A stretch of DNA of 62,883 bases from Meiothermus rufus DSM 22234 (GTDB taxonomy: Bacteria; Deinococcota; Deinococci; Deinococcales; Thermaceae). The translations under genes were made by a program, and so were the position numbers. The stretch covers positions 1-62,883 of the forward strand of contig NZ_AUHY01000011.1 in assembly GCF_000423425.1 (NCBI RefSeq), in the 5' to 3' direction. Under the pieces are notes generated by a model. The model searched no databases and was not told where the DNA came from. It saw only the letters and a list, made by a program, of their open reading frames with translations. Positions 29,591-58,840 of the stretch are shown here, piece after piece (position 1 is the stretch's first letter; every line of letters begins with the position of its first letter).

Positions 29591-31324
29591 ATGAATAGGC
29601 AGCTTTGGTTTGCAATCTGTTTACTGGTGGCTGGGTTGGCCTGGGCCCAACCCAAAACCCTACCCGCCTACACCAACCTCGGGGTGAGTACGGGCAAGGC
29701 TGGAGGGAGCCTTACCCTAGCCTTGGCCAGTGCGCCCCAGACGTTTTTCTACTACGGGGCGATCGACGCGGCTATACAAAACCTAGCCAACCAGATGTTC
29801 GACGGCCTGATCGAGTACAACCTGGCCAACTACCAGATCGAACCCGCTCTGGCTACCCGCTGGAGCATTAGCGAAAACCGCATCTACACCTTCGAGCTGC
29901 GTCGCAACGTGCGCTGGCACGATGGGCGGCCCTTCACCGCCGACGATGTGGTCTTCACCTACACCCAAATTGTGGCTAACCCTGAGGCCCGCGGAGGCGA
30001 TGCCGCCAACTTCGAGGGGGTAAGGGTCGAAAAGCTGGGCGACTTCCGGGTGCGCTTTACCCTGCCCAAGCCAGCCCCGGCCTTTATCCACTACATGCGC
30101 CTGCCCATCATGCCCAAGCACAAGCTGCTGCCCTTCAGCCAGGAAGGAGGGAAACCTCGAGCCGAGATCAACACCGCCTGGCCCACCAACGTCAACCCTG
30201 AGGAAGTGGTGGGCACCGGGCCCTTCCGCCTGCGCAGCTACACCCCCGGCCAGCAGGTCACCTTGGTGAAAAACCCCAACTACTGGAAGCGCGACGCCGC
30301 GGGGAACCCCCTGCCCTACCTCGACCAGGTACAGTACCTAATCATCCCCGACTCCCAGGCCCGGGTGGCCCAATTCCTGGCGGGCAACCTAGGGCAGATT
30401 AATATCACGGGGGCCGAGTTCCCCGACCTCAAGCGGCGGGAAACCCAGGGGGGCCCTTTCCGGGTAGTGCAGTTTAGGGCCCTGTTCGGCTCGCCTCCTC
30501 ATATCGGCTTCAACTACAACGCCAAGAACCCCGAGCTAGCCCGGCTTTTTAGCAACAGCGAGTTCCGGCGGGCTTTGCAGTTTGCGGTCAACCGCGAGCG
30601 TATCATCGAGGACGTCTACAACGGCCTGGCTGAGCGAGCCAGCTACGGGGTGGCCCCCATTTCGGAGTGGTTCTATCCCGAGGTAGTCCGGCTGCAAGGC
30701 CGCTATGACTTGAACGCAGCCAACGCCGCTTTGGACCGGCTGGGCCTAGCCCGGGGGCCAGACGGCATCCGGCGGCTGCCCAGTGGACGCCCCCTCGAGT
30801 TCACCCTAACCTACGGCTCCAACTCGGCGGTCTTTAGCGCTATCGCCACCATCCTGCAAAACGACTTCCAGCGCGTGGGGGTTAAGGTCAACCTGCAGGG
30901 CATCCTAGCCGCCAACCTGCTGGCCACAGGCCGGGGAAGCGACTGGGAGGCCATTTTGCTAGCCCTGGGCGACCAACCCGACCCCGAGCTGCGCACCCCT
31001 ATCTGGAAACCGGGCGGGGCGCTGTACTACTGGCACCAGGCCACCCAGCCTACTACCCCTGGGGGCCCACCCCAGTTCAACAACTTCCTGCCCTGGGAAC
31101 GGGAAATCTACGACCTTTGGGAGCGTGCTGCCAGCACCACCAACTTTACCCAACGCAAGGCCCTCTATGACCGCTGGCAGGCCATTGCCGCCCGTGAGGC
31201 CCAGGTCATCATGATCGCCAAGGAGTATGCGGTGGGCGCTGTCTCCAACCGCTACGGCAACTACATCTACAGCCTAGGGGTAATCCCCGGCTACAACCCG
31301 CTGGTGCTTTTGTTCCAGCGGTAA
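29591..31324 (+). CDS. Peptide-type ABC transporter solute-binding protein
   Basis: A 577-residue exported protein with a signal peptide (MNRQLWFAICLLVAGLAWAQ) and the SBP_bac_5 fold of oligopeptide or oligosaccharide binding proteins. Signs are FDGLIEYN, LATRWSISENRIYTFELRRNVRWHDGRPFTADDVVFTY, GTGPFRL and the C-terminal YNPLVLLFQR. GGAGGAGGAG gives a strong ribosome site. It is followed by two permease genes, but no ATPase gene, so the transporter must use ATPases encoded elsewhere. The ligand cannot be told from sequence. Confidence 0.92.
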   Translation: MNRQLWFAICLLVAGLAWAQPKTLPAYTNLGVSTGKAGGSLTLALASAPQTFFYYGAIDAAIQNLANQMFDGLIEYNLANYQIEPALATRWSISENRIYTFELRRNVRWHDGRPFTADDVVFTYTQIVANPEARGGDAANFEGVRVEKLGDFRVRFTLPKPAPAFIHYMRLPIMPKHKLLPFSQEGGKPRAEINTAWPTNVNPEEVVGTGPFRLRSYTPGQQVTLVKNPNYWKRDAAGNPLPYLDQVQYLIIPDSQARVAQFLAGNLGQINITGAEFPDLKRRETQGGPFRVVQFRALFGSPPHIGFNYNAKNPELARLFSNSEFRRALQFAVNRERIIEDVYNGLAERASYGVAPISEWFYPEVVRLQGRYDLNAANAALDRLGLARGPDGIRRLPSGRPLEFTLTYGSNSAVFSAIATILQNDFQRVGVKVNLQGILAANLLATGRGSDWEAILLALGDQPDPELRTPIWKPGGALYYWHQATQPTTPGGPPQFNNFLPWEREIYDLWERAASTTNFTQRKALYDRWQAIAAREAQVIMIAKEYAVGAVSNRYGNYIYSLGVIPGYNPLVLLFQR

Positions 31325-31347
31325 TACCCCTCCTGCATCAGGGTGGG

Positions 31348-31363
31348 CTGCGGCCCTCCGCAG
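31348..31363 (+). terminator. Hairpin between binding protein and permease genes
   Basis: CTGCGG (31348-31353) and CCGCAG (31358-31363) form a perfect stem with a 4-base loop, followed by AGCTTTTCTTG. It resembles a partial terminator that lowers permease expression relative to the binding protein. Just after it, TGTAGGTCAAG (31375-31385) precedes the permease ATG and also occurs at 29559-29569 upstream of the binding protein. Confidence 0.5.
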
Positions 31364-31385
31364 AGCTTTTCTTGTGTAGGTCAAG

Positions 31386-32360
31386 ATGGGCATAGGTGTG
31401 TTCATTCTGCGCCGGGCGCTGGTAGCCCTGCCCACCCTGCTTTTAATCTCCCTTCTGGTCTTTACCGTCATCCAGCTTCAACCCGGAGGGTTCCTGGAAA
31501 ACATGCTGGAAGACCCCCGGGTAAGCCGCGAAACGGTGGAACATATCCGTCGGCAGTACTTACTGGATCAGCCGGCCTGGGTGCAGTACCTACACTGGCT
31601 GAGGGGCATCCTGCAGGGCGACTTTGGCTTTTCCTTTCTCAATGGCCGCCCCGTCTCCGAACTCATCTGGGAGCGCCTGGGCTGGACGGTCTTCTTGGCC
31701 GCTCTGACCCTTTGGGTCACCTGGTTGATCGCCATCCCCTTGGGTATCTACACCGCACTAAACCGCTACAGCCCTACTTCAACCGCGCTGAACTTCGTGG
31801 GTTACTTCGGGCTAGCCACTCCCGACTTCCTGTTGGCTTTGCTGCTCATCTACCTGGTGCTGGCCAGCGGCGGTACCAACGTAGGGGGCCTGTTCAGTCC
31901 GCAATACATCGATGCCCCTTGGAGCTGGGCCAAGTTCAAAGATCTGCTGGCTCACCTGTGGATTCCCCTGGTGGTCATTGGGCTGGACGGCACCGCCAAC
32001 ATCATGCGCCAGATGCGGGCCAACCTGCTGGACGCGCTCAGCCAGGACTACATCCGCACCGCACGGGCCAAAGGGCTGGCCGAGCGCGTAGTGCTCTGGA
32101 AACACGCTGTGCGCAACGCCATTAACCCCCTAATCAGCCTGGCCGGGCTTCAGCTGCCTACCCTGATCTCCTCCACCATCATTGCCTCCATCGTCCTGAG
32201 CCTGCCTACCATCGGCCCTTTCCTTTACGACGCCCTTCTCAACAAAGACCAATACGTGGTGATGGCCCTGCTGATGCTTTCGGCACTGCTTTTAATGGTG
32301 GGGAATCTGCTGGCCGATATCCTGCTCGCCTGGGTAGACCCCCGCATCCGCTACGAGTAG
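31386..32360 (+). CDS. ABC permease, DppB type
   Basis: A 324-residue protein with six membrane helices. The DppB-family opening is FILRRALVALPTLLLISLLVFTVIQLQPGG, and the EAA motif is DYIRTARAKGLAERVVLWKHAVRNAINPL, which docks the ATPase. It ends DILLAWVDPRIRYE, as usual in this family. It lies 8 bases before the second permease. The ATG has no strong Shine-Dalgarno in front. Confidence 0.93.
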   Translation: MGIGVFILRRALVALPTLLLISLLVFTVIQLQPGGFLENMLEDPRVSRETVEHIRRQYLLDQPAWVQYLHWLRGILQGDFGFSFLNGRPVSELIWERLGWTVFLAALTLWVTWLIAIPLGIYTALNRYSPTSTALNFVGYFGLATPDFLLALLLIYLVLASGGTNVGGLFSPQYIDAPWSWAKFKDLLAHLWIPLVVIGLDGTANIMRQMRANLLDALSQDYIRTARAKGLAERVVLWKHAVRNAINPLISLAGLQLPTLISSTIIASIVLSLPTIGPFLYDALLNKDQYVVMALLMLSALLLMVGNLLADILLAWVDPRIRYE

Positions 32361-53628: not shown

Positions 53629-54693
53629 TCAAAAAACCGAGCTCGCCCACCCAGTCCAGGTACGCCAGAGCGCACCCCCCAGGGCAAATAAGCCCAGCAG
53701 GGGAAGAGGGGGCAATCTAGCCAGCAGGAGTCCCAACGCCAGGAGGGCGACGAGGACCTCGGCCCACCCCACCAGGGTTTCGCGCCCCAGCAGCCATAGC
53801 GCCCAGGCGATGAGGCCCAGTGCGGCCCCGGAAGCCCCCCTCAGAAAAGCATCGGCCAGGGGATGCCCCTCCAGGCGATGCAGGAGGCCAGCCGCCAGAA
53901 AGGTAAACCCGAACGACGGCAGAAAAATGCCCAGGGTTGCAAGGGTTGCTCCGGGAATACCCGCGGCCAGGTAGCCGGCGGCTGTGGCGGTGGTCAGGAG
54001 GGGGCCCGGTGTCACCTGGCCCAGGGCCAGGGCATGCAGGAGTTCATCGGAGCGGAGCCAGCCCTGGCGAACCATTTCCTGCATCAAGCCAATCAACACA
54101 TACCCCGAGCCAAACAGGGTGGAGCCTACCAGCAAAAAGAACCAGAACAGGCTGAGGGGCTCGAGGCTCAGTAACCTGGTGGCCTTACCCAGCATGACCA
54201 GTAAGCCCACCAGCAGCACCACCGCCCATTCCACCAGGCCCAGTCCGGCCAGCCCAAACCCTGCCAGGGCCAGCACCCAGGTCAGGGGGTTTTGGCGTGG
54301 ATGCGGCAGCAAATCCCCCAGGGCCTGGGCAATCAGGGCCACCACGGCCAGCTTAAGCCCCAGAAACGCGCCTTGCACCAGCGGGAGCGAGGCGGTCTCC
54401 TGGTACAAGGCTACCAGCGCCAGGGTGACCAGCGCCGCAGGCACAATGAAGCCCAACCCGGCCAGCAGCAAGCCCCAGCGCCCACCCCTGGCGTAGCCCA
54501 ACAGCATCGCGGTTTCGGTGGAGTTGGGGCCAGGAATCAGGTTTACCGCCGCCAGCATTTTCAGGTACTGCTCCTTACTCACCCACTTGCCCTGGCCCAC
54601 CAGCAAGCGTTGAAAAATGGCCAGGTGGGCAGCAGGGCCGCCAAATGCGGTCAGGCCCAGCCAGGCAAAGGTTCTCAGGATTAACCAGGGCAT
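53629..54693 (-). CDS. chrA: Chromate transporter family protein ChrA
   Basis: A 354-residue membrane protein of the CHR superfamily with two homologous halves. The first half has FAWLGLTAFGGPAAHLAIF and NLIPGPNSTETAMLLGY; the second has GYVLIGLMQEMVRQGW and LGQVTPGPLLTTATAAGYLAAG. The paired GGP and PGP motifs mark the transporter core. It exports chromate or a related oxyanion, or may handle sulfate. It stands alone in front of a divergent ABC operon. Confidence 0.9.
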   Translation of the reverse strand: MPWLILRTFAWLGLTAFGGPAAHLAIFQRLLVGQGKWVSKEQYLKMLAAVNLIPGPNSTETAMLLGYARGGRWGLLLAGLGFIVPAALVTLALVALYQETASLPLVQGAFLGLKLAVVALIAQALGDLLPHPRQNPLTWVLALAGFGLAGLGLVEWAVVLLVGLLVMLGKATRLLSLEPLSLFWFFLLVGSTLFGSGYVLIGLMQEMVRQGWLRSDELLHALALGQVTPGPLLTTATAAGYLAAGIPGATLATLGIFLPSFGFTFLAAGLLHRLEGHPLADAFLRGASGAALGLIAWALWLLGRETLVGWAEVLVALLALGLLLARLPPLPLLGLFALGGALWRTWTGWASSVF

Positions 54694-54728
54694 GGCCCTA
54701 GTGTATGCCCTAGAGTCAGCGCGTTGTC

Positions 54729-54758
54729 TTGACCCACAGCGGTCTCAGTCGGTATTGT
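54729..54758 (+). promoter_or_regulatory. Promoter of the second peptide ABC operon
   Basis: TTGACC (54729-54734) and TATTGT (54753-54758) are 18 nt apart, 25 nt before the ATG. Confidence 0.6.
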
Positions 54759-54783
54759 TGGCAGCGTATCGAAAGGAGGTTTC

Positions 54784-56355
54784 ATGAATCCTATAAAAGC
54801 AGTGGGCCTTATAGCGGCACTAAGCCTGGGCAGTGCCCTAGCCCAAGACCGCACCCAGACCCTGATATACGGTGGGGACTGGTCGGATCTGATCACCATG
54901 GACCCCCAGATCTCCTACGAGTTCTCCGGGGGCTTGGTAACCGACAACCTGTATGAAACCCTGGTCAAGTACGAAGGGGCCGATCTCTCCACCCTGAAGC
55001 CGGGGCTGGCCGAAAGCTGGAAGGTGGAGCGGGGCAAGGATACCTGGGAGATCACCTTCCGTCTGCGCCGGGGCAGCAAGTTCTCCAGCGGCAACGAGGT
55101 GACCGCCAAGGATGTGGTCTACACCTTTGAGCGGGCTTTGGCGTTGAAGGGGCCGGGTTCCTTCCTCTTCACCGAGATTGCCCAGCTCAAACCAGGGGCC
55201 ACCCGCGCAGTGGACAACTACACGGTGGTGGTCAGCATTCCCAAGACCGCTTCTCCGGGCTCCTTCCTTTCGATTCTGACCTTCAACATCGGTGGCATTG
55301 TGGACTCCGAGACGGTGCAGAAGAACGCTAAGGGCAACGACTATGGCCGGGAGTGGCTCACCAACAACTCGGCCGGCTCGGGGCCTTTCCGCCTGGTGCG
55401 CTGGGATCGGGGCTCGCAGGTGTTGCTGGAAGCCAACCCCAATGCCCGCATCAAGCCCAAGCTGCAGCGGGTTATCCTGCGCGAGATCAAAGAGCCTGCG
55501 GTTTTGCGCACGGCCCTCGAGTCGGGCGAAATCGACATCGCTGAGGGCCTGACCCCTGAGGCCCTGCGGGCGCTGGCCGGCAACCCGCGCTTCCGCACCC
55601 TCAAGGCCGACAGCCTGCGGCTCAACTACCTGGGTATGAACGTCAAGGAGGGGAGCCCCTTCGCCAACAAGCTGGTGCGCGAGGCGGTTCGCTACAGCAT
55701 CAACCAGGATGAGCTGGTGAATGGGCTGGTGCAGGGCAACGGCACCAAGATTCAAACCATCATCCCCAAAGGGCTGCTGGGCTACGACCCCCGCACGCCC
55801 TACAACTTCGACCCGGCTCGAGCCCGCCGCTTGCTGGCCCAGGCTGGCTACCCCAATGGCCTCGAGTTCGAACTCCTGGTGAGCACCGGTATCTGCGGCG
55901 GCGGCATTCCCTGTGCCGATATCGCTGCCAAGGTGCAGGCCGACCTGGCCAAAGGGGGCTTTAAAGCCAATGTGAGGGCCATCGCCAACGCCGAAGTGCT
56001 TCGTACCTACCGGGCACAAAACCACCAGATGGTGCTGGTTGGCTGGAGCCCCGACTTCCCCGACCCTGACGGCAACGCCACCCCCTGGGCCGACTTTGCC
56101 GCCCGCAGCATTGCCTGGCGTAACTCCTGGAACGACCCCACTGCGGCCCGCCTGGCTAACCAGGCTGCACTGGAAACCGACCCGACCAAGCGGGTTGCCC
56201 TTTACCGGCTTCTGACCGACTACGTGCTGAAGAATGGCCCCTACGCGGTACTCTATCAGCCCGCCGTACCGCTGGGCCTTTCGGCCAAGGTAGAGGGTTA
56301 CGTGCGTAACGCCCAGGGCCAGGTGCGCTTCGAAAACATTAGCAAGCTGCCCTAA
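54784..56355 (+). CDS. Peptide-type ABC transporter solute-binding protein
   Basis: A 523-residue exported protein of the SBP_bac_5 family. The signal peptide is MNPIKAVGLIAALSLGSALAQ. Family features are YETLVKYEGADL, LAESWKVERGKDTWEITFRLRRGSKFSSGNEVTAKDVVYTFERAL and GWSPDFPDPDGNATPWADF. AAAGGAGGT gives a strong ribosome site. It is followed by a large intergenic hairpin and two permease genes, with no ATPase genes. Ligand: peptides or another oligomer, not settled. Confidence 0.93.
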   Translation: MNPIKAVGLIAALSLGSALAQDRTQTLIYGGDWSDLITMDPQISYEFSGGLVTDNLYETLVKYEGADLSTLKPGLAESWKVERGKDTWEITFRLRRGSKFSSGNEVTAKDVVYTFERALALKGPGSFLFTEIAQLKPGATRAVDNYTVVVSIPKTASPGSFLSILTFNIGGIVDSETVQKNAKGNDYGREWLTNNSAGSGPFRLVRWDRGSQVLLEANPNARIKPKLQRVILREIKEPAVLRTALESGEIDIAEGLTPEALRALAGNPRFRTLKADSLRLNYLGMNVKEGSPFANKLVREAVRYSINQDELVNGLVQGNGTKIQTIIPKGLLGYDPRTPYNFDPARARRLLAQAGYPNGLEFELLVSTGICGGGIPCADIAAKVQADLAKGGFKANVRAIANAEVLRTYRAQNHQMVLVGWSPDFPDPDGNATPWADFAARSIAWRNSWNDPTAARLANQAALETDPTKRVALYRLLTDYVLKNGPYAVLYQPAVPLGLSAKVEGYVRNAQGQVRFENISKLP

Positions 56356-56369
56356 AGAAGCACCACAGA

Positions 56370-56424
56370 GGATAGCTGGTAGGGGCCGTGCTGTATTGCC
56401 GGTACACGCACTTACCAGCTATCC
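56370..56424 (+). repeat. Long perfect intergenic hairpin before the permease genes
   Basis: GGATAGCTGGTA (56370-56381) pairs perfectly with TACCAGCTATCC (56413-56424). Inside the 31-base loop a second stem is possible: GTGCTGTA (56388-56395) with TACA (56403-56406), a bulged C and GCAC (56408-56411). There is no T-run, so this is more like a processing or stabilising structure. It lies 15 bases after the binding protein stop and 42 bases before the permease ATG. Confidence 0.9.
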
Positions 56425-56465
56425 AAAGTTCGGTAGTTCCAACCTCGAGGCCTTGAGTAGCCTTT

Positions 56466-57473
56466 ATGTTTTCTTATCTGATCCGCCGCCTCTTCTTCGT
56501 AGTTTTTGTTGTTTGGGGGGTAACTTTTGCCACTTTCTTTATCGCCAATGTGGTGCCGATTGACCCGGCGATAGCCGCTTTGGGCGATAATGCCCGTGAA
56601 GAACAAATCCGGGAATTCCGTGAGCGCTACGGTCTAGACAAGCCCATCTGGCAGCAGTACCTCATCTACATGGGCCGCTTGCTCTCCGGCGATCTGGGCA
56701 ACTCCCTGCGTACCCAGCGGGCCGTGGCCGAAGACTTGAAGGAGTTTTTTCCAGCTACCCTCGAGCTTTCTGTAGCTGCTTTTCTGGTTACCCTGTTGCT
56801 GGGTGTGCCCGCTGGCATTCTGGCTGCTCTCCAACAAAACAGGGCCACCGATGTGGCGGTGCGCGTGCTGGCTTTGATTGGCGGAGCCACGCCGGTTTTT
56901 TTCCTGGCCGTATTGCTGCAGTATGTGCTGGCCCGCCAACTCGACCTGCTGCCGGTGCAGGGGCGGCTGGACGGTTTTTCCATTCCCCCACCGCGGGTAA
57001 CGGGGCTGGTGGGGCTCGATGCCTTGCTGGCCCACGATTGGTCGGTTTTTGTAGACTCCCTACGTCACCTAGTTCTGCCAGCTTTTGTCTTGGGCTCCTT
57101 CTCGGCAGCGGTGCTGGCCCGCATGACCCGCGCGACCATGCTCGAGGTGCTCGCACAAGACTACATCCGTACCGCCCGGGCCAAAGGGGTAGGGCCTCGA
57201 GCAGTGATCCTGCGCCATGCCCTAAAGAATGCCTCCCTGCCCATCCTGACCCTTTTGGGAAGCCTGCTAGGGGGGCTGCTCTCCGGGGCAGTGCTCACCG
57301 AGACCATCTTTAGCTGGCCAGGCATCGGCCGCTACGTAACCCAGTCGGCCACCAGCCTGGATTTTCCGGCGGTGATGGGGGTAACACTGCTGGTGGGTCT
57401 GGTCTATGCCCTTATCAATCTGGTGGTAGACCTGCTTTATGCCTTCCTCGACCCGAGGATTCGCTACGCCTGA
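56466..57473 (+). CDS. ABC permease, DppB type
   Basis: A 335-residue protein with six membrane helices. It begins MFSYLIRRLFFVVFVVWGVTFATFFIANVVPIDPA. The EAA motif is DYIRTARAKGVGPRAVILRHALKNASLPIL and the end is LYAFLDPRIRYA. It follows the long hairpin and pairs with the next gene. No strong ribosome site stands out before the ATG. Confidence 0.93.
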   Translation: MFSYLIRRLFFVVFVVWGVTFATFFIANVVPIDPAIAALGDNAREEQIREFRERYGLDKPIWQQYLIYMGRLLSGDLGNSLRTQRAVAEDLKEFFPATLELSVAAFLVTLLLGVPAGILAALQQNRATDVAVRVLALIGGATPVFFLAVLLQYVLARQLDLLPVQGRLDGFSIPPPRVTGLVGLDALLAHDWSVFVDSLRHLVLPAFVLGSFSAAVLARMTRATMLEVLAQDYIRTARAKGVGPRAVILRHALKNASLPILTLLGSLLGGLLSGAVLTETIFSWPGIGRYVTQSATSLDFPAVMGVTLLVGLVYALINLVVDLLYAFLDPRIRYA

Positions 57474-57476
57474 ACC

Positions 57477-58328
57477 ATGTCTCCTGCAATCAAAAACCCC
57501 TCCCTACGCCCACTTAGGCGCTTCATGCGAAACCCCGGTGGGCTTTTGGGCCTAGGTCTACTGCTTTTGTTGATGGCGGTGGCCCTCCTGGCCCCGGTTA
57601 TTGCTCCCGATCCCATCCAGCAAAACATCGCCCAGCGCCTCCAGCCCCCCTCAGCTGAACACTGGCTGGGCACCGACCAGCTCGGGCGGGATGTGTGGGC
57701 CCGGGTGGCCCATGGAGCGGGTATCTCGCTGCGGGTGGGGTTTGGGGTGGTCTTGCTGGCGGTGTTGCTGGGGGTAACAGTCGGCCTGTTGGCGGGCACC
57801 CTGGGTGGGGCCTGGGATAACCTGCTGATGCGCCTGACCGACATCTTTTTTGCCTTTCCCTCCCTGATTCTGGCCATGGCTATCGCGGCAGCGCTGGGGC
57901 CCAACCTCAACAACACCATTATTGCCGTGGCCCTGGTGAGCTGGCCCATCTATGCGCGGCTGGTGCGGGCCAACGTGCTGGCTTTGCGCGAGCGGGAGTT
58001 TGTGGAGGCGGCCCGGGCTTTAGGGGCCTCGAGGATCCGGCTCATGCTGCGCCACCTGTTACCCAATACCCTTACGCCCATTTTTGTCCAGGCTAGCTTC
58101 GACGTGGGCGGGGCCATCCTGACTGCGGCTGGGTTGTCCTTCATCGGGTTTGGGGCCCAACCCCCCACCCCCGAGTGGGGAGCCATGGTCTCCGAAACCC
58201 GTAGCTACATCGCCGAGGCCATCTGGGCCCCCACTGCACCGGCCATGGGCATTTTGCTTACCGTGCTGGCTTTCAACCTGCTGGGCGATGCGCTGCGCGA
58301 CGTGTTAGACCCTAGGGCCAGGGACTAA
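57477..58328 (+). CDS. ABC permease, DppC type
   Basis: A 283-residue protein with LGTDQLGRDVWARVAHGAGISLRVGF and EAA motif FVEAARALGASRIRLMLRHLLPNTLTPIF, ending ALRDVLDPRARD. It has the usual DppC length, unlike the longer one at 32369-33451. The ATG follows the previous stop by 3 bases. It converges on a hypothetical gene. Confidence 0.94.
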   Translation: MSPAIKNPSLRPLRRFMRNPGGLLGLGLLLLLMAVALLAPVIAPDPIQQNIAQRLQPPSAEHWLGTDQLGRDVWARVAHGAGISLRVGFGVVLLAVLLGVTVGLLAGTLGGAWDNLLMRLTDIFFAFPSLILAMAIAAALGPNLNNTIIAVALVSWPIYARLVRANVLALREREFVEAARALGASRIRLMLRHLLPNTLTPIFVQASFDVGGAILTAAGLSFIGFGAQPPTPEWGAMVSETRSYIAEAIWAPTAPAMGILLTVLAFNLLGDALRDVLDPRARD

Positions 58329-58332
58329 AGGG

Positions 58333-58752
58333 CTAGAGCCCACCACAACCCAGGGGAAGCCTGGGGGTTTGTGTTACGTGCCACTCTCCTGAGGAAAGCT
58401 GCTGGGCCTGATAGTAGATGTGACCCGGGTTTTGCTGGTCCCCTGAGGCTAGGGCCACCTCGAGGGCCACGCACTGCTCAGGGCTGGCCCGCAGCGTGTA
58501 GACCTGGCCCCGCTGGGGTATCTCTGCCAGGGTAAAGCCGTCGCTCAGGCTGACCCACTGGTGTAGCCGGATTTCTACCCGACAGCCCTCGGTGCCTAAG
58601 GGTTGCAGGGCCGTGACCTGGCCCGTAGCCGTGTAGCTTAGGTAGGGCACAGATTTCTCGGCGTGAGCCCGCTGGTGCAGCCACCAGCTACCCAACGCCA
58701 GTAGCGCCAGGACAGCAATACCCCCCAGCTTCCAGCTTGTGGACAAGGTCAC
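58333..58752 (-). CDS. Hypothetical membrane-anchored protein
   Basis: A 139-residue protein with one N-terminal helix (about 9-26, GGIAVLALLALGSWWL) and a presumably extracytoplasmic domain with two cysteines (EGCRVEIRLHQ, SPEQCVALEV). I do not recognise a family. It begins with GTG. It lies between the ABC operon (convergent) and mcmA (same strand, upstream by 88 bases); no link is evident. Confidence 0.6.
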   Translation of the reverse strand: MTLSTSWKLGGIAVLALLALGSWWLHQRAHAEKSVPYLSYTATGQVTALQPLGTEGCRVEIRLHQWVSLSDGFTLAEIPQRGQVYTLRASPEQCVALEVALASGDQQNPGHIYYQAQQLSSGEWHVTQTPRLPLGCGGL

Positions 58753-58840
58753 GCTTCCATCAAACCGTACCGAGGCGCAAAAAAAGTGTGTACGGGTTAA
58801 AGCCAGGCTTCATCTCCAGGGGCCAGCAGGACAACCCCAT

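Follow-up and report, generated by a model that had tools for sequence, protein, structure and literature searches.

A stem-loop between the binding-protein and permease genes of a Meiothermus ABC importer operon, a candidate stabiliser of the binding-protein messenger RNA

The hairpin at 56370-56424 in the 62,883-nucleotide stretch of Meiothermus DNA analysed here (the window; source genome 2.74 Mb) lies between the binding-protein gene and the first permease gene of an ABC importer operon and most likely raises the output of binding protein above that of permease. The best explanation, to which we assign a probability of roughly 55%, is that it acts in cis as a stem-loop in the messenger RNA of the operon, blocking 3'-to-5' decay and raising the binding protein. 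Directly observed parts of this explanation are the anatomy of the hairpin, its conserved position, the rule found for junctions of this kind, the compensatory changes and the exonuclease genes of the genome. A structure favouring binding protein over permease had been proposed in the first-pass annotation of this DNA, and that proposal is supported by hairpins in 34 of 35 orthologous gaps, by enrichment at such junctions, by compensatory changes and by unequal Shine-Dalgarno sites. The features of the locus are collected in Table 1.

Table 1. Coordinates of the hairpin and its flanking genes in the window
Feature	Position	Strand	Basis and remarks
Strong Shine-Dalgarno site (AAAGGAGG) of the binding-protein gene	54772..54779	+	duplex energy
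Binding-protein gene, dipeptide-type (DppA/SBP_bac_5-like), 523 aa	54784..56355	+	ORF
Outer stem, 5' arm	56370..56383	+	12 Watson-Crick pairs 56370-56381, then G-U, G-C
Inner stem, 2+6 pairs, 6-nt loop 56394-56399	56385..56409	+	fold
Outer stem, 3' arm	56411..56424	+	then AAAGTTCGGT, without T-run
Permease gene, DppB/OppB-like, 335 aa	56466..57473	+	ORF; start 41 nt past hairpin
Second permease gene, DppC/OppC-like, 283 aa	57477..58328	+	ORF

The DppA/SBP_bac_5-like assignment of the binding protein appears to hold at the level of the family only, the top NCBIfam match being DppA at 1e-44, under the curated cut-off. The first permease matched Opp2B (6e-86) and DppB (3e-83), both under the curated cut-offs, and the second permease matched Opp2C with 303.9 bits, above the cut-off of 300. 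No ATPase gene follows the two permeases in 58329-58760, where the next ORFs lie on the opposite strand, and the ATPase of the importer must therefore be encoded elsewhere. The promoter scan of 54400-58600 gave a single promoter-like site, at 54729-54758 ahead of the binding-protein gene (0.8 expected by chance), and none within the hairpin gap, and a promoter inside the gap was rejected on this ground. The window holds a second binding-protein-to-permease junction at 31325-31385, flanked by genes at 29591-31324 and 31386-32360, and a stem-loop is found there too (-23.6 kcal/mol, 3/60 shuffles equally good).

The anatomy of the hairpin agrees in most respects with its first description. The gap of 110 nt (56356-56465), the perfect 12-bp stem and the missing T-run after it were all borne out by the sequence, the arms 56370-56381 and 56413-56424 pairing fully, and the predicted fold carries the outer stem on to 14 pairs, 56370-56383 with 56411-56424. 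The further claim of an inner stem of 8 bp holds for the number of pairs and not for their continuity, as the fold places two pairs (56385-56386 with 56408-56409) and six pairs (56388-56393 with 56400-56405) in separate pieces. The longest T-run in the tail behind the stem, AAAGTTCGGT, is 2. For the 63-nt element the fold has an energy of -34.2 kcal/mol (z -6.5), a value equalled by 0/200 shuffles, whereas the 131-nt stretch around the hairpin gives a z of only -2.1 with 3/200 shuffles equally good. The opposite strand of the hairpin region has a weaker fold (-26.9 kcal/mol).

The window has no other perfect hairpin whose arms reach 11 and whose loop does not exceed 45. Ten dinucleotide-shuffled windows contained 14 such hairpins in total (1.4 each), the arms being 12 or 13 long in 6 cases; about one is expected per 63 kb, and the window overall shows no excess. 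For a perfect hairpin in precisely this 110-nt gap the chance is about 1 in 1000 (0.6 x 110/62883), uncorrected for the number of gaps inspected. Taken by itself the stem is moderately beyond chance, and the comparison with relatives carries far more weight. That the stem is a functionless by-product or a remnant of a dispersed repeat would accord with the expectation of about one such hairpin in a window of this size and with the unconserved letters; it is highly improbable in view of the hairpins at the same place in 34/35 orthologues and the enrichment at such junctions. The search of the genome for whole copies of the hairpin elsewhere gave none, the next best match being 17 nt, and a search of 17 congeners with the gap of the window gave no hit at E 0.01, despite permeases up to 93% identical. 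Present as one whole copy in its own genome and unmatched in the 17 congeners, the hairpin is not a REP, a MITE or another mobile element, and the same result speaks against an origin from a dispersed repeat. The suggestion that the hairpin could be a source of small RNA was not sustained: Rfam gave no family at the gathering score in 55500-57500 (five sub-threshold matches, none overlapping the hairpin), and the letters are unconserved even within the genus.

Orthologous gaps were collected from 61 genomes, 32 of which had a permease match at E 1e-100 or better (two of the 32 without a locus), the congeners with the same operon being Meiothermus. The binding protein gave 35 named loci, the first 12 of which were used (L051-L073 left out). 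Among 42 gaps 35 were counted, those dropped being L039-L044, copies of included gaps, and L050, a distant and partial match. A single hairpin at -20 kcal/mol or better was found in 34 of the 35 distinct gaps, an uninterrupted helix of at least 9 pairs in 29, and 27 gaps were more stable than 95% or more of their own 200 shuffled versions. The gap lacking a hairpin, L031, is 28 nt long and is followed by a GTG start; L017, L021, L029, L030, L032, L038 and L045 did not beat 95% of their shuffles. The collection extends to L048 and L049, from two MAGs titled Oscillochloris and Caldilineaceae with a binding protein 43% identical, and both gaps passed. What is conserved is the presence of a hairpin at that place, the letters differing between lineages.

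Compensatory changes were sought in alignments that exclude the window's own hairpin and rest on the other lineages. The hairpin class common to ten congeners had 97.9% of cells paired and 3/19 pairs changed on both sides, a number of both-side changes reached by 14/500 shuffles, the covariation score being reached by 3/500. Seven Thermus-type gaps (five from Thermus and one each from the genera g1 and g3) had 92.9% of cells paired and 4/12 pairs changed on both sides (0/500 shuffles); a sliding control on this alignment likewise gave 3 both-side-changed pairs when shifted by +2, which makes the count indecisive by itself. The tree built from coding sequence does not resolve the branch of the window near the base of the congeners and therefore gives no count of hairpin replacements. 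Directly ahead of the hairpin in most Thermus-type gaps (L028, L030, L046, L047 and others), and again at the binding-protein junction L158, stands GGTATAGT, which may be a promoter -10 box or a part of the element. With GCCC following within 8 nt, it was counted 8 times in the Thermus-genus genome G036 and 10 times in that of the window, and its reversed control in neither.

A hairpin is the rule for binding-protein-to-permease junctions generally. The junction sample comprised the window, loci of its own genome, and stretches and loci of G016, G008 and G036, with genes and starts taken from a home-made gene caller; after the removal of 15 duplicate pairs, 41 of 54 binding-protein-to-permease pairs were used (gap 40-200 nt). 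A hairpin at -20 or better was found in 37/41 of these gaps and in 61/133 other codirectional gaps of 40-200 nt (Fisher 1.5e-7), and a helix of at least 10 uninterrupted pairs in 29/41 versus 18/133 (8e-12). The z-scores against shuffles differed as well between the two kinds of gap (1e-9), these tests treating rows as independent while some rows are orthologues of each other. Some hairpins were missed by the single-hairpin filter, as in L117, where a visible hairpin scored -10.2. The window's own genome alone carries a hairpin in 11/12 binding-protein-to-permease gaps. The median gap is 80.5 nt between binding-protein and permease genes, 39 between other codirectional pairs and -1 between permeases.

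Translation initiation sites are unequal in the operon. The Shine-Dalgarno duplex of the binding-protein gene was scored at -12.8 kcal/mol, where 163 ATG-start genes had a median of -6.4, using anti-Shine-Dalgarno letters that were not taken from this genome. The permease start of the window (56446-56465 region) scored -5.9 by way of a distant upstream match at about -18 to -15. The unequal sites would push the protein ratio in the same direction as the hairpin. A duplex above -4 kcal/mol was found at 19/22 orthologous permease starts and at 55/163 reference genes, so that most orthologous permease starts lack a Shine-Dalgarno, and in most relatives only about 50-75 nt hold the stop, the stem and the start; both observations would suit a stem that governs permease initiation, for instance through coupling to the end of binding-protein translation. 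Such a translational role is nevertheless improbable, as the permease start of the window scores -5.9, albeit through its distant match, and lies 41 nt past the stem, and as 16/33 other permease starts at binding-protein-to-permease junctions have a duplex of -5 or better despite the hairpin-bearing kind of gap.

If the hairpin protects the messenger RNA, RNA polymerase would transcribe the binding-protein gene, the hairpin and the permease genes in one read-through, and the permease part downstream would be cut or degraded. Exonucleases moving 3' to 5' would halt at the 14-bp stem, and the binding-protein messenger RNA ending at the hairpin would outlast that of the permeases and give far more binding protein. 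PNPase and two RNB-type exonucleases are encoded in the genome. We infer that the RNA ends at the stem, that its two parts decay differently and that decay dominates over termination. The lack of a T-run after the stem, here and in all but 2/35 orthologues (run of at least 4), was counted in favour of decay. Counted against it were the modest stability of the whole gap relative to shuffles in long context (z -2.1), the hairpin-less L031, the seven gaps short of 95% of their shuffles and the search for RNase E/G, of which no homologue was found in the genome.

Protection of the 3' end at the stem is plausible, and partial termination would fit nearly as well. A GC-rich stem may stop some of the polymerases without a U-tract and also stabilise the shortened transcript, an alternative that we regard as a tentative but serious one. 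In the portions of Wu et al. 2022 that bear on this, stem-loops after Ruminiclostridium binding-protein genes terminate at 20.7-96.1%, and one terminating type has a long paired stem, a middle unpaired region and hardly any U, which is the shape of the window's hairpin (PMC9045158). In addition 4/35 orthologues have at least 5 T within 8 nt, and Thermus L028 has a six-T run at the end of its stem. Set against partial termination are the lack of a T-run here and in the majority of orthologues and the terminator scan, which made no call at 56370-56424, although its loop limit of 3-8 and its T rule exclude the element by construction. A classical intrinsic terminator was rejected for its lack of a T-tract, yet this criterion is non-discriminating, a T-run of at least 4 being present in just 1/12 hairpins of convergent gaps in this group, where true operon ends may lack T-runs too, and the missing T-run is for this reason no argument against termination. 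Partial termination is a close rival to protection from decay because it was measured for the same place and shape by Wu et al. (PMC9045158) and because the missing T-run means little here.

The arms of the hairpins in 13 Meiothermus gaps of this junction match themselves at a lag of 7 nt (z 8.3), a value from gaps that have common ancestry and for the most part a single motif. At other binding-protein junctions the lag-7 signal had a z of 3.5 when three hairpins of this junction were included, 2.3 without them (27 arms) and 1.2 when restricted to G016 and the genome of the window (19 arms), and no lag-7 signal was found for the arms in other gaps (z -2.0). Tandem arrays of 7 nt were uncommon in the window and 400 kb of G016, with 10 at period 7 versus 27 at period 6 and 46 at period 9. 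The sequence GATAGCYGATAGC is present in 13/18 congeneric genomes, two of which have 33 and 25 matches (9 and 15 for its reversed control), and is absent from the window's genome. Of 30 places inspected 28 were intergenic according to the home-made gene caller, several of them in hairpins, and four loci (two places) fall at further gaps between likely transporter genes, for example L207/L219. Degenerate GATAGCY units form both arms of the intergenic hairpins L207/L219 (G008 C1 near 327376), L205/L217 (G004), L208/L220 (G002) and L224 (G009). A broader reading, which we consider rather unlikely, is that in Deinococcota and perhaps their neighbours the hairpin behind binding-protein genes is kept for its structure alone, and that lineages repeatedly recruit fresh hairpins with unrelated letters as RNA stabilisers, in Meiothermus often inverted units of about 7 nt (AGGGTTC, GATAGCY, GGAAGCT). 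It stays a bold reading because the signal of period 7, though strong here, is weak away from this junction.

The kind of element is already known from malE-malF and from Clostridial ABC operons, and what is less usual is the free change of letters under a kept hairpin and, in several Meiothermus orthologues, the make-up of the arms from 7-nt units. As the structure persists and the letters vary, elements of this kind would escape searches by sequence. The hairpin of this operon can be traced through many species, and the series from Meiothermus to Thermus lends itself to studying how RNA hairpins are replaced in evolution. The present case would extend to a thermophilic phylum the rule from E. 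coli and Clostridia that the subunit ratio is set by a hairpin behind the binding-protein gene. No account of such a hairpin in Meiothermus or Thermus was found in a limited search of open-licence papers.

The malE element is a repeated REP sequence, and the letters of the present hairpin are by contrast single-copy. Protective hairpins without a uridine tract are described for malE-malF and four other E. coli ABC operons in passages of Dar and Sorek 2018 (PMC5927463), and as in malE-malF a stable hairpin without such a tract stands here right behind the gene of an ABC-importer binding protein, which is needed in excess. In contrast to E. coli, RNase E, the entry enzyme there, has no homologue found here. 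The Type IV elements in the part of Wu et al. 2022 that describes them (PMC9045158) share the place, the kind of operon, the long GC-rich stem, the middle unpaired region and the scarcity of U, a match by shape only; those terminators belong to cellulolytic Clostridia, another phylum, and the U-rich tail is still weaker here. The same source proposes that such internal elements after binding-protein genes are widespread (PMC9045158). In operons with selective RNA processing and stabilisation the energy of the 3'-end stem-loop is taken, in the sections of the SLOFE paper concerned (PMC8219983), as setting operon stoichiometry, ABC transporters included, as may be the case here; unlike those operons the present one has no known processing site. 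The inverted heptameric repeats of Xanthomonas and Nostoc, as far as they are covered by the relevant portions of PMC4692102, resemble several Meiothermus orthologues (AGGGTTC, GATAGCY) in being intergenic hairpins with arms of 7-nt units, but they form a dispersed G-rich repeat family, whereas the arm in the window is at best degenerate and the period-7 signal is weak outside the junction. Common to the present hairpin and the known stabiliser hairpins are the place after a binding-protein gene, the lack of a uridine tract and a structure conserved in relatives.
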